A DNA stretch of 64,000 nucleotides. Source: Alteromonas sp. KC3. Its GTDB lineage: Bacteria; Pseudomonadota; Gammaproteobacteria; Enterobacterales; Alteromonadaceae. The translations under genes and the position numbers were made by a program. Numbering within the stretch: the stretch's first letter is position 1; every line of letters begins with the position of its first letter. The stretch is from positions 186,001 to 250,000 of the forward strand of contig NZ_AP024235.1 in assembly GCF_016756315.1 (NCBI RefSeq), written 5' to 3'. This document shows, in pieces, positions 30,286 through 45,857 of the stretch. The notes under the pieces were generated by a model. The model saw nothing but the letters and a program-made list of their open reading frames with translations, was not told where the DNA came from and did not search any database.

Positions 30286-30984
30286 TTAACTCGGCGTATA
30301 AATGCGCTCCGCACGATTAAATAAAAGCCAAGACGTAATAATATACTTATCGTTGCTCTTAGGTATTTGACCGCGGTGTGTGTGTGTAAAGTACGCAGGT
30401 GCTATCACCATACGTCCGGCTTTAGGTTTTACTGCTCGGTTCTGATAATAAAACTCGGTTTCACCGCCATCTTCCACATCATTGAGATAGTACATAAATA
30501 GCAAAACACGATGTAGTGCATCATTGTGCTGCAATTGTGGATATACCTCAGAATGCCAGTAAGGATAGCCGCCGCTACCTGCTGTATAGCGCTGCGCGTT
30601 GATGTCGCCCACGCGATATAGATAATTGACCAAGTTGGCTAAATTAGGTTTGCCAACCTCTTCAAAATTGTCACCGGTAACTTTTACTGGCTCGCCAGTT
30701 TTAGGGTGGCGCACTGTTAATCCAATGGGGCCGACCAAAGCATAGAAGTACTTTTCTATGTAGGCTACAAGTTGTTTACTGGTATGCTGCATAACCTGCT
30801 GATAGAGATCTTGAAATTCACTATTGCGGCTAATCGACACGTCCATGCTGCGCTTCTTATCCAAATCTACTCCGCCACCAGTGCGACCCTGCGTCACATT
30901 TGGGCTTTGCTCAAACCTGTCTATAAGCTGAGTGCAAAGTTCAGCGGGTAGGGCGTTATCTATAACTTCTATCAAATCGCTCAT
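30286..30984 (-). CDS. 2OG-Fe(II) dioxygenase, prolyl 4-hydroxylase-like
   Basis: The 232-aa cytoplasmic protein has a C-terminal double-stranded beta-helix of the prolyl-4-hydroxylase type. The iron triad is read as WHSE (His and, unusually, Glu instead of Asp) and the distal His in FTHTHRG. The 2-oxoglutarate-binding basic residue is probably the Lys in SNDKYIITSW. GGETEFYYQNRAVKPKAGRM is the conserved strand before the distal His. It would hydroxylate a protein or small molecule; the substrate is unknown. It lies about 0.6 kb beyond the end of the peptide island, in the same orientation but behind its own promoter space and the thioesterase, so I do not count it as part of the island. Confidence 0.85.
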   Translation of the reverse strand: MSDLIEVIDNALPAELCTQLIDRFEQSPNVTQGRTGGGVDLDKKRSMDVSISRNSEFQDLYQQVMQHTSKQLVAYIEKYFYALVGPIGLTVRHPKTGEPVKVTGDNFEEVGKPNLANLVNYLYRVGDINAQRYTAGSGGYPYWHSEVYPQLQHNDALHRVLLFMYYLNDVEDGGETEFYYQNRAVKPKAGRMVIAPAYFTHTHRGQIPKSNDKYIITSWLLFNRAERIYTPS

Positions 30985-31601: not shown

Positions 31602-32429
31602 CTAGTTAGTGTGAAGTAAGTCCTCTGACTGTTGCCACAAAACTTGCATCTGTTGAGGGTCGAGAAAACGCTTATCGATAGCAACTTTCTTGCTTTTACT
31701 AATAAACTCGCCATTTACATCAGAGCTATCATCACGCAGTGCGATATCGATTATGTCGGTTACGCCTTTTTCAACTGGTTTTAGCGAGAACTTAAGCATA
31801 AAGCGCATAAAGCCTGAAATGGGTTCGTAGATGTTAGTGTCGATGGCCCCTGGGTTTACACTGGTTACCGTAACATTGTCATCTTTGAGTTTCTCTTTAA
31901 GCATTTTGGTGAGCTGAACTTGAGCAAGTTTGGAGCGATTGTACGCCAGTCCCCAATGGTATTTAGGCACCATCTCAAGATCATCCATACTGTAAGCGCG
32001 CATTTTGTAACACTCAGAGGAAACATTGATAACGCGCCCCTGTTTCGACACTCGCAGGTTATCTAACAACATCATAGTAAGTACAAAGTGGCTGAAATAG
32101 TTAACCATCATAGTTTTTTCATGGCCACTGGGTGTCATTTCTTTTGTCATGTGAAAGGCACCTGCGTTATTGACCAGAACATCAATTTGGTCATGCTTTT
32201 TACCGATGGCACGGGCAGCACGCTTTACCGAGTCAATATCTGCCAAGTCGGCTAAGTAGGCGTGTACACATACATTATCTGCAACTGAGCTAAGCTGCGA
32301 TAGTGTTGATTCGAGCTTGTCGGCATCGCGATAAAGTAGAATTAAGTCATGTCCAAGCTTACCCATCTCAATGGCGAGTTGTTGCCCAATGCCACTTGTT
32401 GCGCCGGTAATCAAAACTGTTTTTTTCAT
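31602..32429 (-). CDS. short-chain dehydrogenase/reductase
   Basis: The 275-aa classical SDR has the cofactor loop TGATSGIG, the NNAG motif in VLVNNAGAF, and the catalytic Ser (INVSSE) with YNRSK as the Tyr-x-x-x-Lys pair. An Arg after the first strand (LLYRDADK) favours NADP(H). It looks like the retinol-dehydrogenase/WWOX-type subgroup. The ATG at 32429 has GGAG 8 bases upstream. It starts 22 bases after the FtsX-type permease, so it is the last gene of the island transcript. A redox step on the island's product is possible, but this is inference from position. Confidence 0.88.
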   Translation of the reverse strand: MKKTVLITGATSGIGQQLAIEMGKLGHDLILLYRDADKLESTLSQLSSVADNVCVHAYLADLADIDSVKRAARAIGKKHDQIDVLVNNAGAFHMTKEMTPSGHEKTMMVNYFSHFVLTMMLLDNLRVSKQGRVINVSSECYKMRAYSMDDLEMVPKYHWGLAYNRSKLAQVQLTKMLKEKLKDDNVTVTSVNPGAIDTNIYEPISGFMRFMLKFSLKPVEKGVTDIIDIALRDDSSDVNGEFISKSKKVAIDKRFLDPQQMQVLWQQSEDLLHTN

Positions 32430-32450
32430 CACTTATACTCCATTAAATCT

Positions 32451-33677
32451 TTATTGTGTTAATGCCCGAGAGGGCGATAGGGTACAGGCCTTCGACGCAG
32501 GTATTAGGCTAACTAACACTCCGAGTAAAAAGCAGAATAGAACGACAATACAGCCCGTGGTAATAGGGAACTCGACGGTGTACTTGTCAGGTAAAAACAT
32601 GCTCATCAAAAGCGCTAAAACATAGCCACAAAACATGCCGATGATGCCTCCAGCGGTCGTAAGTACACTGGACTCAAGAATAAAGAGTGAAGAGATAAAC
32701 TTGCGACCGGCACCAAGGGCCATTAGCAGTCCTATCTCATTGGTTCTTTCTGTAATGCTAAGTAAAAAGATGTTGGTCATGCCGACTGAGGCCACTACCA
32801 ACGATAGTGCGACAACGGCAATGAGTGTTACCGAGACTATCTTAATCACACTGTTGAATGTACTGAGCAGTTCATCGGTGGTTTCTACTTTGAAGTCATC
32901 GCGCTTTGCAGCTTCAATGTGATGAAGCTCCCTCAACATGCCCGATATTTGTCTCTTGAGACTGTTGATTTGCGAAACATCTTTCGCATTCATTTGAATG
33001 AGTACATCTTGGTGATCGTCAGCGGGTAAAAACGCTTGGCTAGTTTGGTAAGGCATGATGATGATTTCATCTAAGTCCATCCCAAAAAGACTGCCTTTCT
33101 CTTGCATAACGCCAACAATGACAAACCATTCGTCATTCACTTTTATATATTCGCCTACGGGGTCCGTTAGCGATAAATCATCAACGACGGTTTGCCCAAT
33201 AACCAATGAGCGACGGCGTAACGTATTGTCTGCATCGTTGATGAAACGGCCTTGGGCCACATAACGACTGCGCATTTGCATGTAGCTGTATGTTGTGCCC
33301 AAGGCGCTAGGTTGTAGTGTTCTTCCTGCGTACTGAACGCGAGCACCTGGTACCTGAATGATCGGTGTTATATTTTGTGTCTTGTCAGCGACGTTACGTT
33401 TTATGTATTCGTACTCACTGTGGCTGATGTGGGCTTTTTTACCTTTTAGTTGCTCGGTTAATGGCAAATAGGACGACACGGTTAACGTGTTGGAGCCCAG
33501 GTTTTCAAATTGCCAAACGAGAGATTTTGATAAGGTTGAAGAAAAGGTGAGACCCAAAATGAGCGCCATTACCCCAATAGCAACGCTCACGATGATAAGG
33601 CTGCTTTTTAACGCATTTACGCGCAGACTTTCAAACACGTGAGTCATCACATCAATAGAAAAATTAATGTTTTTCAT
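32451..33677 (-). CDS. MacB/FtsX-type ABC permease
   Basis: The 408-aa permease has four membrane segments. One lies near residue 25 (LIIVSVAIGVMALILGLTF), then a periplasmic MacB-type domain of about 230 residues, then three C-terminal helices with the FtsX motif MTNIFLLSITERTNEIGLLM and ALGAGRKFI. Unlike MacB it carries no ATPase domain; that is the upstream gene, which it overlaps by 14 bases. With the MacA-like adaptor it should form a mechanotransmission-type exporter. Such systems move peptides, lipoproteins or siderophores through the periplasm towards TolC. Confidence 0.9.
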   Translation of the reverse strand: MKNINFSIDVMTHVFESLRVNALKSSLIIVSVAIGVMALILGLTFSSTLSKSLVWQFENLGSNTLTVSSYLPLTEQLKGKKAHISHSEYEYIKRNVADKTQNITPIIQVPGARVQYAGRTLQPSALGTTYSYMQMRSRYVAQGRFINDADNTLRRRSLVIGQTVVDDLSLTDPVGEYIKVNDEWFVIVGVMQEKGSLFGMDLDEIIIMPYQTSQAFLPADDHQDVLIQMNAKDVSQINSLKRQISGMLRELHHIEAAKRDDFKVETTDELLSTFNSVIKIVSVTLIAVVALSLVVASVGMTNIFLLSITERTNEIGLLMALGAGRKFISSLFILESSVLTTAGGIIGMFCGYVLALLMSMFLPDKYTVEFPITTGCIVVLFCFLLGVLVSLIPASKACTLSPSRALTQ

Positions 33678-34344
33678 ACACTTTCCTCACTAATTTACCT
33701 TGCGATAGTTCAAAGGCTTTATGAGCTTTTTGTGCAACGGCAGGATCGTGTGTCACCATAATGATGGTATGTCCGTCATTGTTCAGTTGCTGAAACAATT
33801 CGAGAATGCTGTCGGCTGTTTCTCTGTCTAGTGCGCCGGTGGGTTCGTCGGCCAAAATAAGGCCTGGCTTGCCAACAAGGGCTCTTGCGATAGCAACCCG
33901 TTGGCACTGGCCGCCAGAAAGCTGGCGAGGGTAACAATCCGCCTTATCAGCAATATTGAGCCGTTCTAACATGGCAAGCGCCCGTGCTTTGCGCTCGCTT
34001 TCGCTGATTTTTCTTAACAGCAACGGCAACTCAACATTTTTTCTGATGGTGAGGTGCTTGATAAGGTGAAAGCTCTGAAAGACAAAGCCGATGTTACACA
34101 TTCTAAAGTCGGTAAGTTGATTGCTATCAAGCGCACTAACTTCCATGTCGCCGAATTGATATGAACCTGAGTCGAATTTGTCGAAGCCGCCAAGGATATT
34201 CAGCAAGGTAGATTTACCTTCACCAGAACGCCCTAGTAGGCTTACAAATTCAGACTTTTCTACTCGTAATGACAGTTGGCGTAGCACGTCCACTTTGCCA
34301 TTGTCGCCACTGAACGACTTTTCAATGCTGTGTAACTCAATCAT
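33664..34344 (-). CDS. ABC transporter ATPase, MacB/LolD-like
   Basis: The 226-aa ATPase has Walker [19 protein letters not shown], the Q-loop in VFQSFHL, the ABC signature [15 protein letters not shown], Walker [13 protein letters not shown] and the switch His in MVTHDP. It is closest in type to the LolD/MacB/FtsE branch that partners FtsX-like permeases. The ATG at 34344 (AAGGA 7 bases upstream) overlaps the stop of the adaptor gene by one base; a GTG one codon earlier is also possible. Its partner is the overlapping permease gene. Confidence 0.93.
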
Positions 34345-35486
34345 CACAAGATCCTTACCGACTCGCCGTCAGTGAGATTGAGCAGTACGTCCATTGGCCC
34401 CACTACTACTTTGTCACTCTCACTCAGCCCCGACACAATGCGCTGTAATTGAAAGTCAGACTCACCTGCTTGAATTAACTGGCGACGTACTGCGTTGCCG
34501 TTGAGCACATACACAAATTTTGCATCGTTTTGCTCAACAACCGCTTTCATGGGAACAAGCGTGCCTTCCTTACTTGTCGCTAGCTTAATTTTTACTAAGC
34601 AGCTCATGTTTTGACGGAAATTCAGACCGGTCAGCGCATTTTGATTAAGCTCCACGCGCACTTTATTGCGTATCCCTTGAGAGCTCTTATCCACAGTGGG
34701 ATAGATAAAGCTAATCTTTCCTTCAATAGGCGTGTCTGGGTAGGAGGCGAGAAAGACGCTCGCTGATTGTCCTATGTGTACATTAGCGAGCGAACGCTCA
34801 TCAATTTGTACATCAGCAAACACTGACGAGTTATCAGCCATTGATACCAAGAAGTTGAAATCTACATTCATCTGGTTGGGATAAACGTTTTCGCCTTCTA
34901 CCGCGTTTAAGTCGATGATAAGACCGTCCATGGGGGCTTTAATGGTGAGATAGCGTCGCGAACCTTGTACTTCGTCTAGCTGTACTTGCTTGGCTGCTAA
35001 CAGCGAAGATATATGTTTTACTTCCAGATTCGCATTGGTTAATGCTTGCTGGCTTTGTGCGAGCTTTTCTTTACCAATAAGACCTTTGGCCATCAGTGTC
35101 TGATTGATTTGGTGTTGTCTTTCGGTGTCTTGTGCCTTACCTCGCGCGATAGAAAGCTCAATATCTAAGCTGTCATATTGCTTTTTCAGTAGGGCTTCTT
35201 GACTATCTAGCGTGAAGCTATCGAGCTCTAGCAGCGTATCGCCTTTACTCACGCGCTCGCCGACCTCAACAAACACTTGGGTAACCGTAGAAACCACTTT
35301 AGAGTCAAGGTTGAGCTCTCTGTCATAAGACACTTTGCCAGTGGCAACCAAATGCTCATCCAAGTCACCTTTAGTCACTTGCGCAACCTCTACGTACTTC
35401 TGCTTATCAGACTCTGCTGCAAGTTTCAGAAAGGGAGAGCTAATGCCTAACAGCACTAGTCCCCATACAAGTTTTGAGTTTTTCAT
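34344..35486 (-). CDS. MacA-like periplasmic adaptor
   Basis: The 380-aa membrane-fusion protein has an N-terminal anchor (LVWGLVLLGISSPFLKL). The lipoyl half-motifs are VFVEVGERVSKGDTLLELDS and LTIKAPMDGLIIDLNAVEGE. Between them lies a coiled coil of about 80 residues (roughly 95-170). A beta-barrel follows, and a membrane-proximal domain ends in DVLLNLTDGESVRIL. It links the FtsX-type exporter to an outer-membrane TolC channel. No outer-membrane component is encoded here, so the housekeeping TolC is presumably used. It is 2 bases after the Yip1-like gene. Confidence 0.9.
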   Translation of the reverse strand: MKNSKLVWGLVLLGISSPFLKLAAESDKQKYVEVAQVTKGDLDEHLVATGKVSYDRELNLDSKVVSTVTQVFVEVGERVSKGDTLLELDSFTLDSQEALLKKQYDSLDIELSIARGKAQDTERQHQINQTLMAKGLIGKEKLAQSQQALTNANLEVKHISSLLAAKQVQLDEVQGSRRYLTIKAPMDGLIIDLNAVEGENVYPNQMNVDFNFLVSMADNSSVFADVQIDERSLANVHIGQSASVFLASYPDTPIEGKISFIYPTVDKSSQGIRNKVRVELNQNALTGLNFRQNMSCLVKIKLATSKEGTLVPMKAVVEQNDAKFVYVLNGNAVRRQLIQAGESDFQLQRIVSGLSESDKVVVGPMDVLLNLTDGESVRIL

Positions 35487-35488
35487 CG

Positions 35489-36157
35489 TTACACCACCGC
35501 TAGAAATAAGATTGTGCCGACGATTGCAAGATAAGGTGCGCCATATACTGCTACGGCTTTACCCAATGGGTAATGCGTGCGTTTATGCAGTAAGTAAGCA
35601 CACAAACCAACAAACAGCACTGAACTTAGCGATATGCCATTAGCGAGCGAAAACATGGGATGTGTCGGCGCTAAGTTGAAGATCAAGTTGTTAAAGGTAA
35701 GGAAGTCAACCTGATACAAACTCACTTTATTCTCGGGACTGAGTAGCACGTATAGCGCATACATACCGTGTAATAGTGCTGTGCCAAGAGAAGCAAGTGA
35801 GGCAATGTTAAATGACAGCGCAAACGGTACCTCTTTGTCGGCTGGCATCGCAAAACGGCTAAACAAGGTTACGTATGTCGACATTAACAGTGCGGTTAAG
35901 ATTAGGCCTCCAAGTGCACCAAACATGGTTGATGTCTTTAGTAGGCCTGGTGTGATCATCGCTTTTAGCATGTCGCGTTCTTCAGGCGTAATGTCTGCTA
36001 CAGCGGCCTTCGCGTTAAACATAGTTTGTGATAACCAAGTGCCGTCTACCGCGCTGAAATACCAACTCCAGAAGCCAAAGATGATAGCGGCTGCTAAAAC
36101 AAGGGGGAGCCATTTTACCGATTTTTCGGTCGTGTAATTTGCAATAGAAAAGTTCAT
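35489..36157 (-). CDS. Yip1-like membrane protein
   Basis: The 222-aa protein has about five hydrophobic segments and no recognisable catalytic motif. Layout and sequence feel (an N-terminal helix, a long linker, then four closely spaced helices) fit the Yip1/DUF1282 family of bacterial membrane proteins. It sits between the ABC-2 permease (13 bases) and the MacA-like gene (2 bases), with a strong GGAGG before the ATG. A role as accessory subunit or self-protection factor of the exporter is possible but not shown. Confidence 0.6.
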   Translation of the reverse strand: MNFSIANYTTEKSVKWLPLVLAAAIIFGFWSWYFSAVDGTWLSQTMFNAKAAVADITPEERDMLKAMITPGLLKTSTMFGALGGLILTALLMSTYVTLFSRFAMPADKEVPFALSFNIASLASLGTALLHGMYALYVLLSPENKVSLYQVDFLTFNNLIFNLAPTHPMFSLANGISLSSVLFVGLCAYLLHKRTHYPLGKAVAVYGAPYLAIVGTILFLAVV

Positions 36158-36170
36158 AACCGCCTCCTGA

Positions 36171-37298
36171 CTAAACGATTTCTTTAAGGATAAGTTTCTT
36201 GATATCGAACAAGGTGTTCATACAAATAGCGATGTTCACTAACGTGGCTACCAGTAGGTGCGCATAGTCGACTTCTAAGGCGAGTGCCATATTGACGCCG
36301 CTAAACACATTTAAAACAGGGATAAATGCTGTAAAGAAAAACATGTCATCGCCAAGGTGAATTTTTGAAAGCGCCATTAGTGCCATCATTAGCAAGACAC
36401 CAAGTAACTTAGCTTCTTTCATGTTTTTGGCGATGCAACCCAGTAGATTGGTTAATGCCGAAATGAGAAAAATACTTGGAATGAGGTAACAAAATACGAC
36501 GATGATATCGGTAGTATTGAGCATATCGAGGTATTGGAAGAAAGCTGACATCTTGTCGATATCGCTTGCACTTGTGCTCGCTGCGCTGCCGTAAACGGTA
36601 TCAACAGCAACACTTGATAGTAAGATCCCCACTATACCTAGCGCTGCGGTCAATGCTGCACAGAAAGAAGTGAACACTAACTTACCTGCAAATATTGACT
36701 GGATTTTATCCTTAAACTCGCTGTACAAACGAAATGAACCGCGCTCTTTTTCGCCTACAGTGATGTCCATACCGAAATTCAGTGCACCAACAAAGCTAAA
36801 CACGATAATGAGCATGACAATAATATTGGCTAGGCTAGTACCAATGATATTGACAACACTGGTGTCGCTTTGCAGATCTTCAATTTGCAATGGCGGCGTA
36901 GGCGCGTAAGTGCTGCGTAGATAGAACTGCTCCATTTTTTGCTGCAATGGTTCAGCGGTTAACGCTGCATTGGCAAGTAATAACGTGCCTGAACTCATAT
37001 CTAGCATCGCGTCTAGATGACCATCGCGTAGGTTGTCTTGAATGGTCGTTCTGGCCTCTGGTCCGAAGCATTGCACTTGCCCTGCAATATCATTGGGAAG
37101 TTCGCTGCAATCGTTGTGAAGTACAGCAATAGCGCTGGGTTTGTTTTCAACCCCCATACTTGTGCTGTAGGTAATCAGTGTCACCGCTGGTACAAACAAA
37201 AGGGGTATAAGGAACACAATGATAAGTGTGCGTGTGTCTTGCAAAAATTCGCGAAACTCTTTCGCGTATACTGAACGTACAATGGCAGAGTTAAACAT
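36171..37298 (-). CDS. ABC-2 type permease (NatB-like)
   Basis: The 375-aa protein has one N-terminal helix (TLIIVFLIPLLFVPAVTLIT), an extracytoplasmic domain of about 130 residues, then five to six C-terminal helices. This is the ABC-2/NatB layout. The motif VGEKERGSFR in the cytoplasmic loop is the usual coupling element (EKE-x-G). Its ATG shares a base with the stop of the ATPase gene, so the two form one transporter. Together they probably extrude the island's peptides or protect the membrane from them. Confidence 0.88.
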   Translation of the reverse strand: MFNSAIVRSVYAKEFREFLQDTRTLIIVFLIPLLFVPAVTLITYSTSMGVENKPSAIAVLHNDCSELPNDIAGQVQCFGPEARTTIQDNLRDGHLDAMLDMSSGTLLLANAALTAEPLQQKMEQFYLRSTYAPTPPLQIEDLQSDTSVVNIIGTSLANIIVMLIIVFSFVGALNFGMDITVGEKERGSFRLYSEFKDKIQSIFAGKLVFTSFCAALTAALGIVGILLSSVAVDTVYGSAASTSASDIDKMSAFFQYLDMLNTTDIIVVFCYLIPSIFLISALTNLLGCIAKNMKEAKLLGVLLMMALMALSKIHLGDDMFFFTAFIPVLNVFSGVNMALALEVDYAHLLVATLVNIAICMNTLFDIKKLILKEIV

Positions 37299-38002
37299 TA
37301 TGCAGCCTCCAGCGTTTTCATGTATGACGCTTCTAGGCTGTCTCCACTTGCCTCGAAATCGCTCATTGGTCTGTCGTAGATAAGACGACCTTGCTCTAGC
37401 ATCAACACGCGGTTTGCGATTTGTTGTACTTCAGACATGTTGTGAGTCGACACTATGATGATCTTGCCAAGCCCACTTAGGTTTTGAATGATCTCTATAA
37501 GCTTGTAGCTCGACTCAATGTCTAATCCCGCGGTAGGCTCGTCTAACATTATCACTTGAGGGTCAACAAGAAATGCTTTCGCTAAGCTCACCCGTTGTTT
37601 CATGCCCGTTGAAAGGTCGCCGACTTTTTTGTCCAGAAACGATGCAAGATTGAATCGTCGAGTTACATCATCAATGGTGCTTTCGATACTGCTACGCGCT
37701 ATTTCGTACAAGTCGCAGAAGTAGTGAAGCGTCTCTAACACGGTTAGCTTTTGGTAAAGGTTGTCAGCTGGCGTAAGTAGTTGAACTTGACCATGAGGAT
37801 TGCCGCTTATTTCAACGCTGCCTTCGCTTGGTTGGTAGATACCTGCCAACAATCGCATAAGCGTAGATTTTCCAGCCCCATTTCTGCCTAGTAGAGCAAT
37901 GACGTCACCAGGGTTTGCCACTAAGTTGAGGTTCTTTACACCCCATTGTTCTTGCTTGCGGTTCGCCTTAAAGCGTTTACCTAATTGTTTAGCGATTAAC
38001 AT
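37298..38002 (-). CDS. ABC transporter ATPase (NatA/CcmA-like)
   Basis: The 234-aa protein is a complete ATPase. Walker A is LLGRNGAGKSTLMRLLAG, the signature is DLSTGMKQRVSLAKAF, Walker B is VIMLDEPTAGLD and the H-loop is VSTHNMSEVQQ. The type fits ABC-2 exporters (NatA, antibiotic or bacteriocin self-protection). It overlaps the upstream unknown protein by 7 bases and the permease downstream by one. Confidence 0.93.
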   Translation of the reverse strand: MLIAKQLGKRFKANRKQEQWGVKNLNLVANPGDVIALLGRNGAGKSTLMRLLAGIYQPSEGSVEISGNPHGQVQLLTPADNLYQKLTVLETLHYFCDLYEIARSSIESTIDDVTRRFNLASFLDKKVGDLSTGMKQRVSLAKAFLVDPQVIMLDEPTAGLDIESSYKLIEIIQNLSGLGKIIIVSTHNMSEVQQIANRVLMLEQGRLIYDRPMSDFEASGDSLEASYMKTLEAA

Positions 38003-38901
38003 AGTGATGTCTCCCTAACTTGAAGCTCACTAATTTGATGGCGTAATTGAGCGTTAAAGTAGTCGTTCTTGCCGGTCAGGTGACTTTCGATAAAATCAAT
38101 TTTTTGTGACTGCGGCAGACGTGTCGCAAGTGACTTAACGATGGCGGACTTAGTGCGTAGACAGGTAGTACGCTGTCCTAAATCACTCAGCAACTGACGG
38201 GTATTGTCGTTACCCACTTTGGCAGCGATGTCGGCAAGTACAGGGCCACTGTTTCGATTAATTAGGCTGTGAATGCGCTTATTCTCAAGGTCAAAGCGAT
38301 ACTGGTTAATTCGCGGAAGATCTAGGCTATCTTCCATTAAGTTAATGCTAATCGAGAAAGATTCAGGCGGAATTTGATAGTGAATGTCTTTCTTTCCGCG
38401 ATAAAGCATGACTTTGCCTTGCTCTAATTGAGAGGTACGAATGTATCTCAGATCAACTTTTTCACCCGGCATGCCAATGACTTTGTCATGATCGTATTCA
38501 TAATATTCACTTTTATAGCCAGGGCCGTAATAACCTACTGACAAGAAGTTAAAGTTATGGTCGTGCGGAAGGTAATAGAAAAATGACTCTGGTCCACTCT
38601 CTTTGTAAGACTTGTCTTGGGCACTTGGCCAAAAGCACGCTCTCATAAAGAATTTTTTACAGCGGCCGAGCATCAATACTTGTGCACCGTAATGATTGTC
38701 TTCCTGAAAATTAGCCAGCTTTACTAATTCTTCATTAATCTTGTCGGCAAGGAAGTCACGGTTATTACCCAGTGCTTTCATCATAGGAGCAGCATCTTTA
38801 AGTGATTGCTCATCACGCATATCAACGTGTTCTTCTGCGTACTCTATGAATTCTTCAAGGGAAATAACGTTTGTATTTTGTGGTCTTAATTCAATCGCCA
38901 T
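37996..38901 (-). CDS. unrecognised protein, possible cupin-like centre plus helical-repeat C-terminus
   Basis: I do not recognise the family of this 301-aa protein. No signal peptide or membrane helix is visible. A central region holds His-rich elements: LPHDHNFNFLSVGYYGPGYK (His113, His115) and VMLYRGKKDIHYQIPPESF (His174). Their spacing is reminiscent of a metal-binding cupin, and three His could ligate one ion. The last 80 residues or so look like degenerate HEAT-type helices. The downstream-encoded layout matches that of the next upstream gene: both have G-x-V-x6-G-x3-IH near the centre and helical repeats at the end, so the two look like diverged paralogues. It is the only cytoplasmic enzyme candidate of the island besides its sister and the SDR. 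A role in peptide modification is inference. Confidence 0.6.
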   Translation of the reverse strand: MAIELRPQNTNVISLEEFIEYAEEHVDMRDEQSLKDAAPMMKALGNNRDFLADKINEELVKLANFQEDNHYGAQVLMLGRCKKFFMRACFWPSAQDKSYKESGPESFFYYLPHDHNFNFLSVGYYGPGYKSEYYEYDHDKVIGMPGEKVDLRYIRTSQLEQGKVMLYRGKKDIHYQIPPESFSISINLMEDSLDLPRINQYRFDLENKRIHSLINRNSGPVLADIAAKVGNDNTRQLLSDLGQRTTCLRTKSAIVKSLATRLPQSQKIDFIESHLTGKNDYFNAQLRHQISELQVRETSLC

Positions 38902-38915
38902 GGTGGTAGTCCTTA

Positions 38916-39836
38916 TTAATGTTGTTCGGCAAACATTTCACAGCAGCGCTTGGCCGTTGCTTGTACATCTGGGTGAGGGTCTGATGTGAGCTTGTGAATA
39001 AGTTGAACACCCGCGTCTTGATCTAACGTGTAAAGGTTCATCGCTGCGCTCCAGCGAACGAAATGGTCTGTATGCGTTCCCAGTTTTTCGAGAACAGGGA
39101 TTGAGGCTTTGTGATTGAGGTTGGCGACCATTTCTGCAAACATTTCTGCGCGTGAAGAGGCGATATTCGCTGCACTTACGCCTACGAGCTGAAGCGATGC
39201 AAGGTTGTATTCACCAATGACTTTAATAGGGCTTTTTGAATCAGATACTTCGTGATAAACCATGTCATCGTTCACTTCACGGAAATGAATAGCATTCATT
39301 CCTGCTTTTAGCTTAATGACATCGCCATCATTCAATGTGATAGTTGATTTTAGCTTGATAGTTTGACTGGCATTTTGGCTATCTAACTCAGATGCTATTT
39401 CATAAATATCAAGAATGGTTCCCTTCGCTTTGGCAAAATAAAGCAAAGTATTGTGTGGGGTTATTTTTAATGAAAACTGTTCTTTTACTTTGTTTTCTCG
39501 GTGTACTGAAATACCGGCTTGGTTAAATGAGAAGGTGGTAAGTCTGAAATACGGCGTATTTAAAATAGACCAACCTTTTACTCTGTCATTTCCGTGATAG
39601 AGCGGAAGTTGATAGTACTCCTCGCAATTAAACGCCCCGATTTCTTTGGCAATAACAAAGTCAAGAAAGTCTGAGGCAACAAGTGCTTCAAAGTCATTAC
39701 TAAAGTCGAAGAACGAAAAGTGCTCGATATTCTCTAGCTTCGCCATCAAAGCGTTAAGTAAGGGATGCTGCTTATAGGTTTGGTGAACATTTAATTGAAG
39801 TTCACTAATGTCATGGACGGATTTTTCGGTGCTCAT
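38916..39836 (-). CDS. unrecognised protein with C-terminal HEAT-like repeats
   Basis: The 306-aa protein is of unknown family. The start is set at the ATG at 39836, with GAGGA 7 bases upstream, rather than at the longer 321-aa frame. The C-terminal 80 residues read as two HEAT repeats: THTDHFVRWSAAMNLYTLD and TSDPHPDVQATAKRCCEMF. The central part (about 85-200) shows the strand pattern GDVIKLKAGMNAIHFREVND that aligns with the neighbour's GKVMLYRGKKDIHYQIPP. It lacks the neighbour's HDH pair, so if the fold binds metal this copy may have lost it and act as a partner. It follows the peptide array by 284 bases. Confidence 0.6.
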   Translation of the reverse strand: MSTEKSVHDISELQLNVHQTYKQHPLLNALMAKLENIEHFSFFDFSNDFEALVASDFLDFVIAKEIGAFNCEEYYQLPLYHGNDRVKGWSILNTPYFRLTTFSFNQAGISVHRENKVKEQFSLKITPHNTLLYFAKAKGTILDIYEIASELDSQNASQTIKLKSTITLNDGDVIKLKAGMNAIHFREVNDDMVYHEVSDSKSPIKVIGEYNLASLQLVGVSAANIASSRAEMFAEMVANLNHKASIPVLEKLGTHTDHFVRWSAAMNLYTLDQDAGVQLIHKLTSDPHPDVQATAKRCCEMFAEQH

Positions 39837-40120
39837 TTTATATCCTCGTAATATATAAACTGACCCAATGGGTAAATTCATTATGAGGACATGGCTATTT
39901 TATGTAACTGTCACATCTAACAGTATATAAATAGGGTAGGTTTGGCATAATTACCTACAGTAAATACCAATGATCAAACAAAGAAAGCGCTGAAATATCC
40001 AGATTTATACCAAGCTATCGCTACTCTTGGATGGTCCCCAAGTGTTGGTGCAATTCTCGATACTTCAGCGTACAGCCATATTTTTACGAGGTTTTTAGGC
40101 TAATACTATAACGCTAAGGT

Positions 40121-40246
40121 TTAGCGAAGGTAGATACCAACCGCAATACCGATAGCGATACCTACAGTTATAGCCACTGCTGTCTCATGTTCTGCTTGTG
40201 AGCCGTAAACAGATACTGGTTGATTTAGTGTTGGGATAGCTTTCAT
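40121..40246 (-). CDS. GxxxG peptide A of the tandem array (41 aa)
   Basis: A 41-codon gene with a strong ribosome site (AAGGA, 7 bases before ATG). The product begins MKAIPTLNQPVSVYG, has a polar hinge SQAEHET (residues 16-22), and ends in a hydrophobic run with GxxxGxxxG (Gly29, 33, 37) closing in IYLR. The hydrophobic part (about 23-38) could span or insert into a membrane. There is no double-glycine leader and no Cys. It is the last copy in the array. The function is unknown; bacteriocin-like, RiPP precursor and small membrane toxin are the options I consider. Confidence 0.88.
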   Translation of the reverse strand: MKAIPTLNQPVSVYGSQAEHETAVAITVGIAIGIAVGIYLR

Positions 40247-40288
40247 AAGTTTTTCCTTTTTTTGTTGTTTAATAAAAGTGAGTGTTAA

Positions 40289-40414
40289 TTAGCGAAGGTA
40301 GATACCAACCGCGATACCAATAGCAATACCTACCGTTATTGCGACTGCTGTTTCATGTTCAGCTTGTGAACCGTAAACAGATACTGGTTGATTAAGCGCT
40401 GGGATAGTTTTCAT
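40289..40414 (-). CDS. GxxxG peptide B of the tandem array (41 aa)
   Basis: A near copy of peptide A: it differs at residues 3 and 6 only (Thr3, Ala6). The ribosome site AGAGGA lies 7 bases before the ATG. The third-base differences from copy A across the gene, with the protein kept, show purifying selection and so a real gene. Same GxxxGxxxG segment and C-terminal IYLR. Confidence 0.88.
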   Translation of the reverse strand: MKTIPALNQPVSVYGSQAEHETAVAITVGIAIGIAVGIYLR

Positions 40415-40450
40415 GTGTATTTCCTCTTTTGATTAAAATGTTGTTTTTAC

Positions 40451-40576
40451 TTAGCGAAGGTAGATACCAACCGCGATACCAATAGCGATACCGACAGTAA
40501 TAGCCACCGCAGTTTCATGTTCAGCCTGTGAGCCGTAAACCGAAACCGGTTGATTTAGTGTTGGGATAGATTTCAT
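40451..40576 (-). CDS. GxxxG peptide C of the tandem array (41 aa)
   Basis: Differs from peptide A only at residue 3 (Ser3). The ribosome site AAGGAG lies 6 bases before the ATG. The polar hinge, GxxxGxxxG and IYLR ending are identical in sequence to A and B. Confidence 0.88.
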   Translation of the reverse strand: MKSIPTLNQPVSVYGSQAEHETAVAITVGIAIGIAVGIYLR

Positions 40577-40612
40577 GTGTTTCTCCTTAGTGTTGTTGGT
40601 GTTGCGTTTTGG

Positions 40613-40735
40613 TTATCGAAGGTAAATGCCTATAACAATGCCAATAGGTATCCCTACGCCAATAACTACCGTTTCATGTTCTTTGTGAGAACCGTACAGT
40701 GATACTGGTTGGCAAAGTGAAGGTAAATTTTTCAT
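40613..40735 (-). CDS. GxxxG peptide D, diverged copy (40 aa)
   Basis: A 40-aa relative of A-C with the start MKNLPSLCQPVSLYGS. Cys replaces Asn at position 8, and one residue is missing in the hinge/helix junction. Gly28, 32 and 36 keep the GxxxGxxxG spacing, a Pro lies at position 30 inside the segment, and the end is again IYLR. AGGA sits 7 bases before the ATG. The pattern of kept residues (M-K-x2-P-x-L-x-QPVS-x-YG) shows where the family is constrained. Confidence 0.87.
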   Translation of the reverse strand: MKNLPSLCQPVSLYGSHKEHETVVIGVGIPIGIVIGIYLR

Positions 40736-40855
40736 AATTCTTTCCTATCTAAATGACTTTTAGTTGGTTTCTTTACAATCAATTCTGGGTTTAGGCGTAA
40801 GTAAGCACCTTTGTTGTCACCTGAATGCCCAACATTACGCGTCCCAAAATTTCGC

Positions 40856-40990
40856 TTATATTTTTCTTCTTAAAAAGCTAACGACTAACAACAGCAATAC
40901 AAAAAACGTTAATCTAATTAGCTGTTTAATATAGTGTTTTGTATCTAAAACGTTTGTGCGATAGCGATTAGCTCTGAAATAAACGTTCAT
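40856..40990 (-). CDS. 44-aa single-helix membrane peptide coupled to peptide E
   Basis: This short gene begins at an ATG that overlaps the stop of peptide E (ATGA), so translation is probably coupled. It has no own ribosome site of note. The product is basic: an N-terminal part with four Arg (YFRANRYRTN), one hydrophobic segment RLTFFVLLLLVVSFL (about residues 26-40), and the tail RRKI. It has no resemblance to the array peptides. Its place directly after a peptide gene is that of an immunity protein in bacteriocin operons, which makes this the best candidate for such a role. It could also be a chance ORF; the exact overlap, the membrane-like composition and the charged flanks argue otherwise. 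Confidence 0.55.
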   Translation of the reverse strand: MNVYFRANRYRTNVLDTKHYIKQLIRLTFFVLLLLVVSFLRRKI

Positions 40991-41106
40991 CGGATAATGA
41001 GTCCAAGACCAATAAAGACACCGATTGGAATACTTAGCGTGGTATCAGCCTGGCAGTGCGCGCCATACAGTGAGACTGGTTGATTTAGCGAAGGTACATT
41101 TTTCAT
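40987..41106 (-). CDS. GxxxG peptide E, most diverged copy and first in the array (39 aa)
   Basis: The 39-aa product begins MKNVPSLNQPVSLYGAHC, matching the family N-terminus. It then diverges: hinge QADTT, hydrophobic part with Pro27, Gly29, Gly33 and Gly35, ending LIIR. It has a Cys at 18. The ribosome site AAGGAG is the strongest of the array (7 bases before ATG). It is the first peptide gene downstream of the HlyD-like gene, separated by 156 bases that hold a hairpin and a palindrome. E differs enough from A-D that it may be the partner chain of a two-peptide system. Confidence 0.85.
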   Translation of the reverse strand: MKNVPSLNQPVSLYGAHCQADTTLSIPIGVFIGLGLIIR

Positions 41107-41885: not shown

Positions 41886-42071
41886 TCAATAATCGCAGGT
41901 TGAAATTGAGAAGTCGCCCTCTGCGAACGTACTGTCAGAGTAGTCATAGCTATCGTTGCACGATGCAAATTCATCGTTTGATGCATCCACATCGTCGCTG
42001 CAATAGCGCTCTAGAATTCGCAATTCTTTCATTGAGATTCCCATTTCCTTAAACGCTTTATTTTTGTCCAT
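41886..42071 (-). CDS. acidic Cys/Ser-rich small peptide
   Basis: A 61-aa product from the ATG at 42071 (AAGG 9 bases upstream). The first 24 residues are charged and helical (MDKNKAFKEMGISMKELRIL), like a RiPP leader. The rest is strongly acidic and rich in Ser and Asp, with three Cys, the last in STCDY at the end. No signal peptide, no double glycine, no known motif. Its stop lies 14 bases before the start of the HlyD-like gene, and it follows the LuxR gene, so it is in the same transcript. It could be a second type of precursor peptide. Confidence 0.6.
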   Translation of the reverse strand: MDKNKAFKEMGISMKELRILERYCSDDVDASNDEFASCNDSYDYSDSTFAEGDFSISTCDY

Positions 42072-42106
42072 TTTCAATCACCTTCTGTTGTGTAGTGAAT
42101 CAAGGG

Positions 42107-42781
42107 CTATAGCACTAAATGTCCCTTCAACAGGCACTTCGCAATGGCCTGTTGTCTGTTAGTGCTCCCGGTTTTCTGAATGTAATTCGAAATATGAAAA
42201 TTAGCGGTGCGCTCGGAAATATTGAGAATTTGGCTTATTTCCCACGACGTCTTACCTTCTGACGCCCACCGAATGCATTCGAGTTCTCGCTTGGTAATGT
42301 GTACTTGGTCCTCTTTCCACGCACAGTCATAGGCCGCGTATAAATAGGGAACGATAATGGACCAAAACCAGCCAAGTTTTTCAGAAATTCGCGTTACTGG
42401 ATTGCTCCCACGTTTGGATATTCCTAAAACGAAATATCCAAAATCATTACCAGCACCGTGAAAAGGTAAAAGCAAAATTCCTGATAAGTCATCGTCAACC
42501 AAAATTGAATTTTCTATCTCTTCTCTAAAAATAAATTCAATTTCAGTTAACTTTCTATAAGAAAATTTATTAGGAAAATTAGAGAGTATTTTTTCTAATT
42601 TATCACTTGGTAAATCACCAATTATTTTCTTATTTACACAAGTGGCTGTTTCATTTTCTTGAATTATTATTCCCGCCCAACAATAGGCATCCAAAGAGGT
42701 TATTCCTTTGAAAAAACTAATGAGTTGGGGCTTGGTTTTTACTTTTTTAATTTCATCTATCAGAAATTTAATTTTTTTCAT
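42107..42781 (-). CDS. LuxR-type transcriptional regulator
   Basis: A 224-aa protein from the ATG at 42781; the ORF reaches further upstream but would then overlap the exported-peptide gene. The C-terminal HTH is clear: ITKRELECIRWASEGKTSWE and ISERTANFHISNYIQKTG. The N-terminal 150 residues have the size and some pattern of an autoinducer-binding domain (ILLLPFHGAGNDFGYFVLG), but the usual Trp-Tyr-Asp-Pro ligand set is not evident. No LuxI-type synthase is in the window. The gene is notably AT-rich (for example 42530-42780), which suggests acquisition. It likely controls the peptide array downstream. Confidence 0.88.
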   Translation of the reverse strand: MKKIKFLIDEIKKVKTKPQLISFFKGITSLDAYCWAGIIIQENETATCVNKKIIGDLPSDKLEKILSNFPNKFSYRKLTEIEFIFREEIENSILVDDDLSGILLLPFHGAGNDFGYFVLGISKRGSNPVTRISEKLGWFWSIIVPYLYAAYDCAWKEDQVHITKRELECIRWASEGKTSWEISQILNISERTANFHISNYIQKTGSTNRQQAIAKCLLKGHLVL

Positions 42782-42812
42782 TTTAATCACCCACATCGTA
42801 GTTCGTGAAAAA

Positions 42813-43001
42813 TTAGTCTCTTCTACATAGCTTAGGAACCATGATGCAAATAGTCGCTGGGTCAGACGTTGTAGTACCATCTTGGTCGGTAACGCTCACT
42901 TCATATGTTGTGCTTTCTTTCGCGTTAACTGTGCTAACAAGTGAAAGAGTAAGTAGTGCTGCTGTGAAAACTGTTTTTACGTTAATGCGTGAAGTAGTCA
43001 T
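42813..43001 (-). CDS. small exported peptide (62 aa)
   Basis: A strong ribosome site (GAGGA, 8 bases before the ATG) supports this 62-aa gene. The N-terminus is a normal signal peptide (to about residue 27, ending STVNA). The mature part is about 35 residues, polar, and ends ICIMVPKLCRRD, with two Cys five residues apart that could form a disulfide. It has no known family. It lies 31 bases before the LuxR gene, in the same direction, behind direct repeats that look like a regulator site. A secreted signal or accessory peptide is possible. Confidence 0.75.
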   Translation of the reverse strand: MTTSRINVKTVFTAALLTLSLVSTVNAKESTTYEVSVTDQDGTTTSDPATICIMVPKLCRRD

Positions 43002-43367: not shown

Positions 43368-45524
43368 TTAATGTTTTGGATTAACAGAGGAGAGCGCAGC
43401 TGCGTCAACCAATAGAATTTCAGCTTCTGAGTACGGCCAGCTTTTGAGGATTGCTTTGTTTCTTCTTTCGTCAATATCGAAAGATGCGCTAATAGAAGAC
43501 GCATTGAAGGTTTTTTCGCTAATACGTTCGCCATTATGGTCGAGAACATTAAAATGTGCATCTCGTCCATCAAAGTCGCTAAAGTAAATATATCGGTTAT
43601 CAGCATACCAATTCGTATTTTCTGCCGAGGGTAGTGAAAAGGGCAATGCTTTAATTGTTTTACTTTTATGATCAAAAACACTTAGTTCATAATTTTCATT
43701 TAAAAGAAATACTTTATCTTTAACTTGCCTAGCTGCTCTGAAATCTGAAAATAAATCTACCGTTTTTTGATTATCTAATTGGTATTCTTTTATTTTCCAG
43801 ATGCCTTGTTCTTTCACACCATAAATTACGCCATCACCGTTGGCATTAAACACACCATCATGTGCGATCATATGGCCACCGGTAGTGATGTATTTCACAT
43901 TATTGGTGTCTACTTCCAAAAGTGCTAGAAGACCATCGAGGGTCAGAAGAATGAAATCGTTTTGAGGGGCTACATCAAGCAAACTAAGATTCATAGTTGT
44001 CTGCAACAATGATACTTGCTCTTTCCCTTCTCTTCTTACAAGCTCAGAACGAGCGCCGTCTTTAACAACGTAAAGCAACTCACCCGATTGACCCAAATAA
44101 CGAACCTCATCCACGGAGTCGCCTGGTGTTGCGATGATTTTTTGTGTGGCGGTGTCAAATGAAGGAAGACTAACTTCAATGAAATACGAGTCAGACAAAG
44201 AATTGCGAACCACCATATATTCGTCACGACTTAAAGGTTCAATGTCGATGGTATTGCTATCTTTATTAAGGGCGATAGACGTTTGTGCAGCACCCTCAAT
44301 CTCAACTTTTACGATTTCTGTGCTATCAAGTAGCATAATTTCTTCATTATTGAGCCAGGTGACTTCGTATAAGCCGCTGCTGTGAAAAAATCGTTTAACG
44401 ATGGCTCTATTGCGTGTATTGAACAGTGAAAGTACGTGCTCTTCCAAGCCGCTCATAGACGTAGTCACAAGCAAGTAATCGCCATTAGGCGAAACATCTA
44501 CGCGGTAATCGTTTGAATTCGTATCGTGAGCAAATGTAATTGCCTCAATATTTCCAGAGGTGTAGTCGAGATAATAAACTTGTCCCGTCCCTTGTGCATC
44601 CTTCACTGCGGCAAAGTACAAACCACTGCCATCGTGGGACTCATCAAAATCGGAAACAATACTGAAGCCTTCTACTAATGTTGTGGTTTCAGCATCGTTG
44701 CTAATGTTTTTACTGAGTATTTTGGAGCCGCCCAAAGACAGATCAATAAAAATAATATTTTGCTGGTCGCGAGAAAATTTCACCTCAGTAACATTATTGG
44801 CATTTTGTGTTAATTGTCGAATGTTCTGGTTTTCTAAGTTTGCATGAAACAGTTGAAAGCCTTGCTCGCCAATGAGTTTGCCCGCAAATACTATTTCACT
44901 CGCGTCGTTGTTAGCACTTGCGCTTATCTTCTCTCCTGAGAAGTTAATCAGTTTTGTTTGGCTTGGCACTGCTGTTTGCAGCGAATAGAATAAAATGGCA
45001 CCCAATAGCAACATGGCGATAACCAGTGCCGAAGAGGGAATCCGGCCAGAGTGACGAAAAACCGTTAAAAATGAGCGTGCACGCGATGTAATTCCAGCGT
45101 GTAGCGCACTGGCTGTATTACCATTTGGACTGTGAGTTTGCGCATGATGTGAAACGGTACAATCTAGCTTGTACCCCCGTTTATGCATCGACTTAATTAG
45201 TGAGTGGTTATCCGTTTCGCCAAGCAGCGTACGCAATTTGCTAATTGCTCGCCTGACAGCGGCATCACTTACAACACGGTCGGCCCACACCTTTTCGTGC
45301 AGTTCATTGATTAATACGTATCTATCGGCGTTTCGGCATAAAAAAACCAATAAATCAAAGACTTTTGGTTCAATTGCGACTTCTTGGTTGTGTTCTAAGA
45401 GTAAGTTTCGCTGGGTATCGACAGTAAACTGTTCAAAGCTGAAGGTTTCAGGGGTAGCCGTGTGCTCGACATCAGTTTGCGAACTTTCAGTTCCCTTGCC
45501 CTGTACAACTACCGTGTTACTCAT
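43368..45524 (-). CDS. winged-helix regulator with membrane helix and beta-propeller-like sensor (CadC-like)
   Basis: A 718-aa protein from the ATG at 45524; the frame extends 18 codons further without a better start. The N-terminus has an OmpR/CadC-type DNA-binding domain (about 28-121: LLVFLCRNADRYVLINELHE and VRRAISKLRTLLGE). One membrane helix follows (ALVIAMLLLGAILFYSLQT, about 166-184). A periplasmic region of about 500 residues has TolB/DPP-IV-like propeller repeats (SRDQQNIIFIDLSLGGSKIL is one blade). This is a one-component membrane regulator. It lies upstream of the exported-peptide gene in the same direction and may be the regulator that recognises the TGGTTACA repeats. The propeller ligand is unknown. 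Confidence 0.87.
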   Translation of the reverse strand: MSNTVVVQGKGTESSQTDVEHTATPETFSFEQFTVDTQRNLLLEHNQEVAIEPKVFDLLVFLCRNADRYVLINELHEKVWADRVVSDAAVRRAISKLRTLLGETDNHSLIKSMHKRGYKLDCTVSHHAQTHSPNGNTASALHAGITSRARSFLTVFRHSGRIPSSALVIAMLLLGAILFYSLQTAVPSQTKLINFSGEKISASANNDASEIVFAGKLIGEQGFQLFHANLENQNIRQLTQNANNVTEVKFSRDQQNIIFIDLSLGGSKILSKNISNDAETTTLVEGFSIVSDFDESHDGSGLYFAAVKDAQGTGQVYYLDYTSGNIEAITFAHDTNSNDYRVDVSPNGDYLLVTTSMSGLEEHVLSLFNTRNRAIVKRFFHSSGLYEVTWLNNEEIMLLDSTEIVKVEIEGAAQTSIALNKDSNTIDIEPLSRDEYMVVRNSLSDSYFIEVSLPSFDTATQKIIATPGDSVDEVRYLGQSGELLYVVKDGARSELVRREGKEQVSLLQTTMNLSLLDVAPQNDFILLTLDGLLALLEVDTNNVKYITTGGHMIAHDGVFNANGDGVIYGVKEQGIWKIKEYQLDNQKTVDLFSDFRAARQVKDKVFLLNENYELSVFDHKSKTIKALPFSLPSAENTNWYADNRYIYFSDFDGRDAHFNVLDHNGERISEKTFNASSISASFDIDERRNKAILKSWPYSEAEILLVDAAALSSVNPKH

Positions 45525-45857
45525 GCCAGCTAGCCTAATTGTCTTTGATTTTAATTTTGCTTTGTTTAAACAATACACACTTTTACGGCATTCTCAAAGC
45601 GTCTTACACCACGTGATTTGTTTAAAAGTATTAATGAAAGTGTCAATGCTTAAAGGAGAGCAGCGTATTGTGGGTTTATATAACATTCACACAACCTAAG
45701 TGGACGTACCTGATAGCCTTGTTTTTACTTCGCTAAAGAGTGCAGTGATTCAACGAATTGACGATATTCATGGGTAAGTTCATAGGATGGAATGATTTTG
45801 TATAGTAGACTTACCCGCTATTTTTAATCATTCAATGCTGGATATGACAACGGAACT
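45525..45857. other. divergent upstream region of the CadC-like gene and the Hsp70 gene
   Basis: About 330 bases carry the promoters of two divergent genes. I found no clear operator, RNA gene or further copy of the TGGTTACA octamer. Confidence 0.4.

Follow-up and report, generated by a model that had tools for sequence, protein, structure and literature searches.

The 64,000-nucleotide window of Alteromonas sp. KC3 considered here (contig NZ_AP024235.1, positions 186,001 to 250,000) carries five short paralogous open reading frames (ORFs), A to E, within positions 40121-41106 of its minus strand. What does such an array produce, and which genes act with it? In the loci and genomes examined, the peptide family to which these ORFs belong is confined to the vicinity of a pair of adjoining genes, CupB and CupA. 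We consider it fairly probable that A-E are redundant precursors of a product resembling the ribosomally synthesized and post-translationally modified peptides (RiPPs), matured by the CupA/CupB pair.

A first-pass annotation had described five ORFs of 39-41 amino acids sharing the N-terminus M-K-x2-P-x-L-x-QPVS-x-YG and a hydrophobic C-terminus, and all are present. In the alignment, 17 of 41 columns are invariant, including M1, K2, P5, L7, Q9, P10, V11, S12, Y14 and G15. Mean hydropathy, computed for peptides A, D and E only, lies between -0.35 and -0.74 over residues 1-22 and between 1.9 and 2.1 over the remainder. The glycine spacing (i, i+4, i+8 in A-D; i, i+4 in E) and the ribosome site of each gene (AGGA-type, 5' of all five) are likewise as described. 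The GxxxG motif characteristic of class IIb bacteriocins is present in A-E; cysteine is absent from A-C and occurs once each in D and E. Copies A-C had been said to differ at one to three residues and to be under selection. They are indeed near-identical with an excess of synonymous changes (11-15 in each pair), the count of non-synonymous changes being in fact one or two; the ratio of non-synonymous to synonymous rates (dN/dS) is 0.05, 0.02 and 0.03, not near 1, and A-C are under purifying selection. Against D and E the ratio is 0.10-0.35 where defined, with dS near saturation, and infinite for C-D. These ratios, together with the existence of relatives, rule out chance or spurious ORFs. Promoter- and terminator-like sites at the locus show no excess over shuffled sequence. 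The earlier view that no named family fits also stands: no Pfam model reaches its cut-off for the three of the five peptides scanned, no NCBIfam model does so for peptide A or for six relatives, and no PADLOC model fits the peptides. Weak matches of peptide A to DUF3487 (E = 0.068) and TIGR03750 (E = 0.013) were set aside.

Homologues, for which the first-pass annotation had proposed a profile search, exist both as four other protein clusters and as a larger diverged family. The five-peptide profile retrieved seven clusters (P0001-P0007) from 5.8 billion protein sequences. P0002 and P0005 are the window's D and E, and P0001 closely resembles A-C and possibly includes them; P0003, P0004, P0006 and P0007 are other peptides, two of them from Alteromonas sp. 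D210916BOD_24 with neighbouring locus tags. The array accounts for all five matches in its own genome at E up to 10. Among 146 relatives searched with the profile, eight genomes matched at E up to 0.1, convincingly only the own genome and G051 (E = 9e-8); G055 gave 0.005 and the other five 0.06-0.09.

Three profile models built from 24 seed peptides were searched against 29,236 ORF segments (25-250 amino acids, six frames) from 90 loci, and their union gave 91 peptide matches in 71 loci. Ninety of these lie 868-2086 bases upstream of CupA on the same strand and none lies elsewhere, the remaining match (L047) occupying the same slot on the opposite strand. A seed is contained in 24 of the 91, leaving 67 without one. 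The matches are not independent events, because L026 and L038 represent a single place sampled two times and some of the loci are closely related. A whole-genome test covered 398 Pseudomonadota genomes, a set that may overlap in species with the 90 loci, with CupA taken at E up to 1e-8 and the peptide at E up to 1e-3 using a model of 15 sequences, none from the window. CupA was found in 15 genomes and the peptide in 12, all within the 15; the 383 genomes without CupA contained no peptide match. All 13 peptide matches lie upstream of CupA on the same strand, and 2 of the 16 CupA matches have an internal stop. The same model also finds window copies B and C. On eight whole genomes of named loci it matched five and missed three, including L034, whose peptide other models find, so that it is insensitive to some kinds of peptide. 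A species-level scan (84,980 species, one genome each; tblastn, E up to 1e-3) gave 415 CupA relatives, the best 80 of which were kept; the CupB-CupA pair is present in 79 of these 80, and most have a family peptide.

The family is large and diverged, with a conserved N-terminal motif, roughly [LI]PxLxxx[VT]GxxG[SA] (a looser pattern fits 83/91), followed by a mostly hydrophobic C-terminal part. Conservation lies in the N-terminal half, and the C-termini differ. The window type is GIAIGIAVGIYLR; EVGGxxC and similar ends occur in many sphingomonads (pattern [VIT][GA]GxxC in 21/91), relatives of Novosphingobium and Erythrobacter have sequences such as IVVLMTYVYE, and Sphingomonas has LIVGIAILIYEIAP and similar ones.

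Structure prediction makes CupA and CupB a paralogous pair with a thiol-dioxygenase/cupin fold, the predicted shape of CupA resembling that of an iron oxygenase. The model of CupA has the cupin barrel and three histidine ligands that define the thiol dioxygenase superfamily. The true start of CupB may be an internal methionine at about 39836, the first 20 or so residues of the ORF being modelled with low confidence. No Pfam family matches CupA at E up to 10, including CDO_I (PF05995), and no Pfam, NCBIfam or PADLOC model fits it at cut-off; CDO_I is also missing from the 25 of 28 Pfam families listed for 73 CupA members at E up to 1. PF05995 itself was not found in 60 relatives and exceeds its cut-off in 8 of 185 class genomes. 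HEAT_2 matches 23 of the 73 CupA members (best E = 2e-5) and CupB (E = 5e-5, under cut-off), which is taken as a real helical-repeat likeness. DUF693 (best E = 0.013, only 7/73 members) and PRK11644 (E = 0.006, 15 bits against a cut-off of 408) were set aside, and the matches of the CupA profile in a PDB sequence search, E2F8 (E = 7e-4, profile positions 8-82) and two weaker transcription factors, were read as helical likeness outside the cupin part. Compared with cysteine, 3-mercaptopropionate, mercaptosuccinate and ergothioneine dioxygenases, plant cysteine oxidases and ADO, CupA adds a C-terminal helical extension, a paralogue lacking the motif and a linked peptide gene. It differs from them also in having no CDO_I match and in that many partner peptides lack a thiol; since A-C have no cysteine, these peptides are not themselves the thiol substrate.

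The locus shows features by which RiPP systems are recognized: a gene-encoded precursor, a conserved N-terminus, a variable core and tight linkage to candidate modifying genes. The conserved N-terminus would act as the leader that the CupA/CupB pair recognises. CupA, with the intact three-histidine fold of its model, would modify the peptide oxidatively, and CupB, which lacks the motif, would serve as a recognition or scaffold partner aiding binding. In this genome, two transport systems encoded in the same gene row, the ABC-2 exporter and HlyD/MacB, would carry the product out, and the LuxR regulator may be in control. The leader protease would be encoded elsewhere, because Pfam names no leader peptidase among the 19 region products scanned (three of them peptides). 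As A-C contain no cysteine for CupA to oxidise, its target in them would have to be another residue. The thiol-dioxygenase fold is known for sulfur oxidation, and we know of no case in which it performs C-H oxidation, oxidative decarboxylation or cross-linking on peptides. A bolder reading supposes exactly such O2 chemistry on cysteine-free peptides, by a maturase composed of a three-histidine enzyme of this fold and an inactive paralogue, in a new RiPP class spanning phyla; this is advanced tentatively and with more doubt than belief. If the pair does modify peptides, it would represent a new enzyme fold for peptide natural-product biosynthesis and would pose the question of how a sulfur-oxidation fold acts on sulfur-free peptides. 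CupA is widespread, with 415 relatives in a single scan, yet fits no family.

Several observations weigh against a role of A-E as precursors matured by CupA/CupB. Product, modification and export are all predicted from sequence. CupA has no Pfam CDO match, and the fold that it is modelled to share does not demonstrate activity. Its profile resembles that of CDO_I only weakly: HHalign gave P 0.018 and probability 2.5, the CDO_I side consisting of eight proteins of which L119, whose match lies at another position in its locus, is in the wrong reading frame. Cysteine is absent from 54 of the 91 family peptides. The thiol chemistry known for the fold therefore leaves these unexplained, and the general reaction cannot be a standard dioxygenation of a peptide thiol. 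Many Sphingomonadales C-termini contain acidic residues (e.g. DDLFELIVGIAILIYEIAPDF), unlike typical antimicrobials. No peptide match was obtained in 3 of the 15 CupA genomes (G446, G539, G611), nor, at model threshold, in 19 of the 90 loci. Inspection by eye of these 19 revealed a clear family-like ORF in five (L027, L056, L067, L088, L090), a possible one in three (L029, L033, L083) and no trusted one in eleven, some of them cut contigs (L032, L059, L062, L070, L076, L082, L086, L087, L094, L095, L098). Finally, in 36 of 89 loci no ABC, HlyD, MacB, ECF-sigma or winged-helix cluster was found within about 8 kb, several being short contigs; export thus need not be a universal part, and with peptide, CupB and CupA alone identifiable there, the role may be regulatory. 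Across the 89 loci, clusters of ABC ATPases and of winged-helix regulators were found in 25 loci each, those of HlyD in 15, of ECF sigma factors in 12 and of MacB in 10. These counts derive from clustering, not from careful gene calls, and same-strand clusters were used because shadow ORFs in GC-rich genomes blur neighbour counts.

The first-pass annotation had looked to GxxxG helix packing, as in two-peptide bacteriocins and some microcins. On such an account the peptides would be unmodified, membrane-active and exported by ABC transporters, with CupA/CupB providing immunity or acting as escort. The hydrophobic C-termini with glycines at i, i+4 and i+8 in A-D, the two nearby sets of exporter genes and the adjacency of several distinct peptides agree with it, and the window's own peptides are possibly membrane-active end products. 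However, only 34 of the 91 family members have GxxxG after residue 18, the family conserves its N-terminal half while the C-termini differ, and the constant companions are the thiol-dioxygenase/cupin-fold pair, not bacteriocin genes, also where no exporter was found. Class IIb two-peptide bacteriocins, which resemble A-E in the GxxxG motifs of small peptides, have a double-glycine leader and a C39-peptidase transporter. By contrast, inspection of A-E reveals no double glycine, and Pfam finds no C39 peptidase in the gene row, whose transporters are of MacB and ABC-2 types. As an account of the family this is unlikely.

It is also quite unlikely that the peptides are intracellular small membrane sensors or regulators with CupA/CupB as soluble partners, sensing for example oxygen or metal, and a sigma factor or winged-helix protein as output. 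ECF-sigma and winged-helix clusters at some loci (12 and 25 of 89), the many loci in which no exporter was found and the acidic Sphingomonadales C-termini point that way. However, the five-copy array with two adjacent exporter sets better fits a secreted product, and C-termini that diverge strongly by clade behind a preserved N-terminus are what a leader and core would give. Pyrroloquinoline quinone and the pearlins are small molecules built on, and released from, a carrier peptide, and a short precursor beside an oxygenase-fold pair recalls them; such a carrier, serving a single small molecule, would be expected to retain the consumed residue, whereas the C-terminal residues vary (R, K, N, G, F, I, A and others), and this role is highly improbable. 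A toxin of a type I-like toxin-antitoxin module, suggested by tandem short hydrophobic ORFs, is scarcely credible given the conserved N-terminal motif, the constant CupA/CupB, the nearby exporters and the lack of any PADLOC match for the five proteins scanned.

The maturation of A-E by CupA/CupB would belong to a kind of system, the RiPP-type peptide systems, that is itself already known. Daptide clusters also encode several short hydrophobic precursors, together with a decarboxylase, aminotransferase and methyltransferase set; such a set does not appear in the Pfam results for the 19 scanned products, and the NCBIfam model daptide_Mpa2 appeared once, scoring 12.5 bits where the cut-off is 40 (E = 0.09). 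PbsQ and BpmG of biphenomycin-like peptides are JmjC-related cupin-like hydroxylases in RiPP clusters (PMC12257519). According to the portions of that source available, PbsQ is a cupin-fold protein that hydroxylates a ribosomal peptide, and CupA is a predicted cupin fold with a peptide gene. However, PbsQ is JmjC-related and one enzyme among MNIO, arginase and B12-rSAM enzymes, whereas here a thiol-dioxygenase-like protein and its paralogue are constant. Cupin-4 genes have been found with NHLP domains linked to proteusins (PMC9426513) and a Nif11/cupin cluster in Synechococcus (PMC10783134), as far as the excerpts go. TMcins, short transmembrane RiPPs (PMC13252029), are, in the parts of the paper available, ribosomal peptides with a leader and a hydrophobic helix that are secreted by an ABC transporter, as is proposed for A-E. 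Their clusters differ in encoding an escort protein alongside a protease and a DsbA-like protein; the word 'cupin' does not occur in the paper's text (PMC13252029). None of these three proteins has a Pfam match among the 19 products scanned, and the cysteine content of A-E (none in A-C, one in D and in E) also departs from TMcins, whose products have a disulfide. The available text on PbsQ, cupin-4/NHLP, Nif11/cupin and TMcins mentions neither a thiol-dioxygenase-like protein nor a CupA/CupB pair. Among the papers listed by full-text searches of 5.39 million open-access articles (most subscription journals lie outside this scope), none was recognised as describing the peptide/CupA/CupB system, and the peptide family with its CupB-CupA pair is apparently undescribed.

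Table 1. Features of the array and its gene row (window positions)
Feature	Position	Strand	Basis and remarks
Precursor peptide A	40121..40246	-	41 aa; ORF, alignment, ribosome site
Precursor peptide B	40289..40414	-	41 aa; ORF, alignment, ribosome site; also recovered by model built without window sequences
Precursor peptide C	40451..40576	-	41 aa; ORF, alignment, ribosome site; also recovered by model built without window sequences
Precursor peptide D	40613..40735	-	40 aa; ORF, alignment, ribosome site
Precursor peptide E	40987..41106	-	39 aa; ORF, alignment, ribosome site
CupB	38916..39881	-	Predicted cupin-fold paralogue of CupA without HDHNF motif; HEAT-like helices at C-terminus
CupA	37996..38901	-	Predicted thiol-dioxygenase fold, invariant HDH and later His, C-terminal helices; putative peptide-modifying enzyme
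ABC transporter ATPase, adjoins ABC-2 permease	37298..38002	-	Pfam PF00005
ABC-2 permease	36171..37298	-	Pfam PF12698
222-aa protein without family	35489..36157	-	Kept in Thalassotalea gene row
HlyD-type membrane fusion protein	34344..35486	-	Pfam PF16576
ABC ATPase, adjoins MacB-type permease	33664..34347	-	Pfam PF00005
MacB/FtsX-type permease	32451..33677	-	Pfam PF12704, PF02687
Short-chain dehydrogenase, end of gene row	31602..32432	-	Kept in Thalassotalea
Short HlyD-like protein, 208 aa	41263..41889	-	Pfam PF13437
63-aa acidic ORF	41886..42077	-	4-base overlap with HlyD-like gene
LuxR-type (GerE) regulator	42107..42880	-	Pfam PF00196; kept in Thalassotalea
62-aa ORF, possible peptide signal	42813..43001	-	Signal-peptide-like N-terminus, C-terminal ICIMVPKLC

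The genes from CupB to the short-chain dehydrogenase lie downstream of the array, all on the same strand, with neighbours overlapping or at most 20 bases apart (Table 1); upstream are the short HlyD-like protein, the 63-aa ORF, the LuxR regulator and the 62-aa ORF. Thalassotalea marina has the same gene order: LuxR, a 40-aa peptide (MKTLPSLSQPVSVYGSRLESETAAVLAGIAIGIAIGIYLK), CupB, CupA (74% identical) and on to the dehydrogenase. A 2OG-Fe(II) oxygenase gene (30286-30984, minus strand) some 600 bases beyond the window dehydrogenase has no match in the Thalassotalea locus better than E = 0.38 (tblastn) and is therefore probably outside the system.

CupA occurs in 9 of the 146 relatives, own genome included (10 matches), and its distribution among them is patchy. 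Nine further CupA matches (L025-L033) have at least one possible precursor ORF upstream of CupB, of varying clarity and doubtful in L032. By record name, 59 of the best 80 CupA relatives are Sphingomonadales; the other names include Thalassotalea, Alteromonas, Tahibacter, Lysobacter, Dyella, Stenotrophomonas, Nevskia and Aquisalinus, as well as Mucilaginibacter, Blastopirellula, Verrucomicrobia, Acidobacteria and one 'Bacillus'. A search of protein sequences yielded 517 homologues of CupA at E up to 1e-3; among the 120 listed, four are named 'transposase' and the others are hypothetical or unnamed. Loci L040, L050, L051, L061, L071 and L092 (Sphingomonas, Polymorphobacter) contain two CupB-CupA pairs in tandem, and every pair has one or more peptides of its own upstream. 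At E 1e-5, no phage record and two plasmid records match CupA. Locus L027 is the same place as the 252-kb A. stellipolaris plasmid CP013927.1, which carries the cluster; a 4.65-Mb contig of A. stellipolaris has a second, diverged CupA (L032). The Vibrio plasmid NZ_CP080241.1 has a weak CupA relative (25% identity). The plasmid location of the cluster and of a CupA relative suggests horizontal spread.

Small acidic ORFs of about 50-63 amino acids, without clear sequence likeness, lie between the LuxR gene and an ORF of 208-221 amino acids at three loci (window 41886-42077, minus strand; L034 7751-7903; L128 2939-3094, reversed coordinates). The window member has a weak DUF7938 match (E = 0.001, under cut-off), and at E 1e-3 neither of the larger ORFs, in L034 and in L128, matches the HlyD-like protein of the window.

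In several loci the LuxR-type gene is immediately preceded by a short ORF whose N-terminus resembles a signal peptide and whose C-terminus has a pair of cysteines (window 42813-43001, minus strand; L034 6702-6965; L124 830-1499, reversed coordinates; L125 1187-1465; L127 1054-1212); none was seen in L126. It ends in ICIMVPKLC in the window, VCRLAPQLC in Thalassotalea and CWFIC in L127. L124, from another genome of the genus, has three tandem ORFs ending in VCILLPQLCN plus K or R, and L125 a single ORF with two ICADSPTRC repeats. The expression C..[AVILM]P.[LIVM]C near the C-terminus selects 2 of the 29,236 segments, exactly the window and Thalassotalea ORFs. From its sequence, the ORF resembles a Gram-negative peptide signal with a cysteine loop, the LuxR regulator being its partner. 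Beyond it lies a regulator that combines a beta-propeller with a DNA-binding domain of the OmpR type (window 43368-45578, minus strand), with a relative at the same place in Thalassotalea (L034 3835-5946) and parts of one (267 and 382 amino acids matched) in L128 and L129. The genome containing L128 (G001) has no CupA match, so peptide signal, LuxR and OmpR/beta-propeller protein may form a separate portable module.
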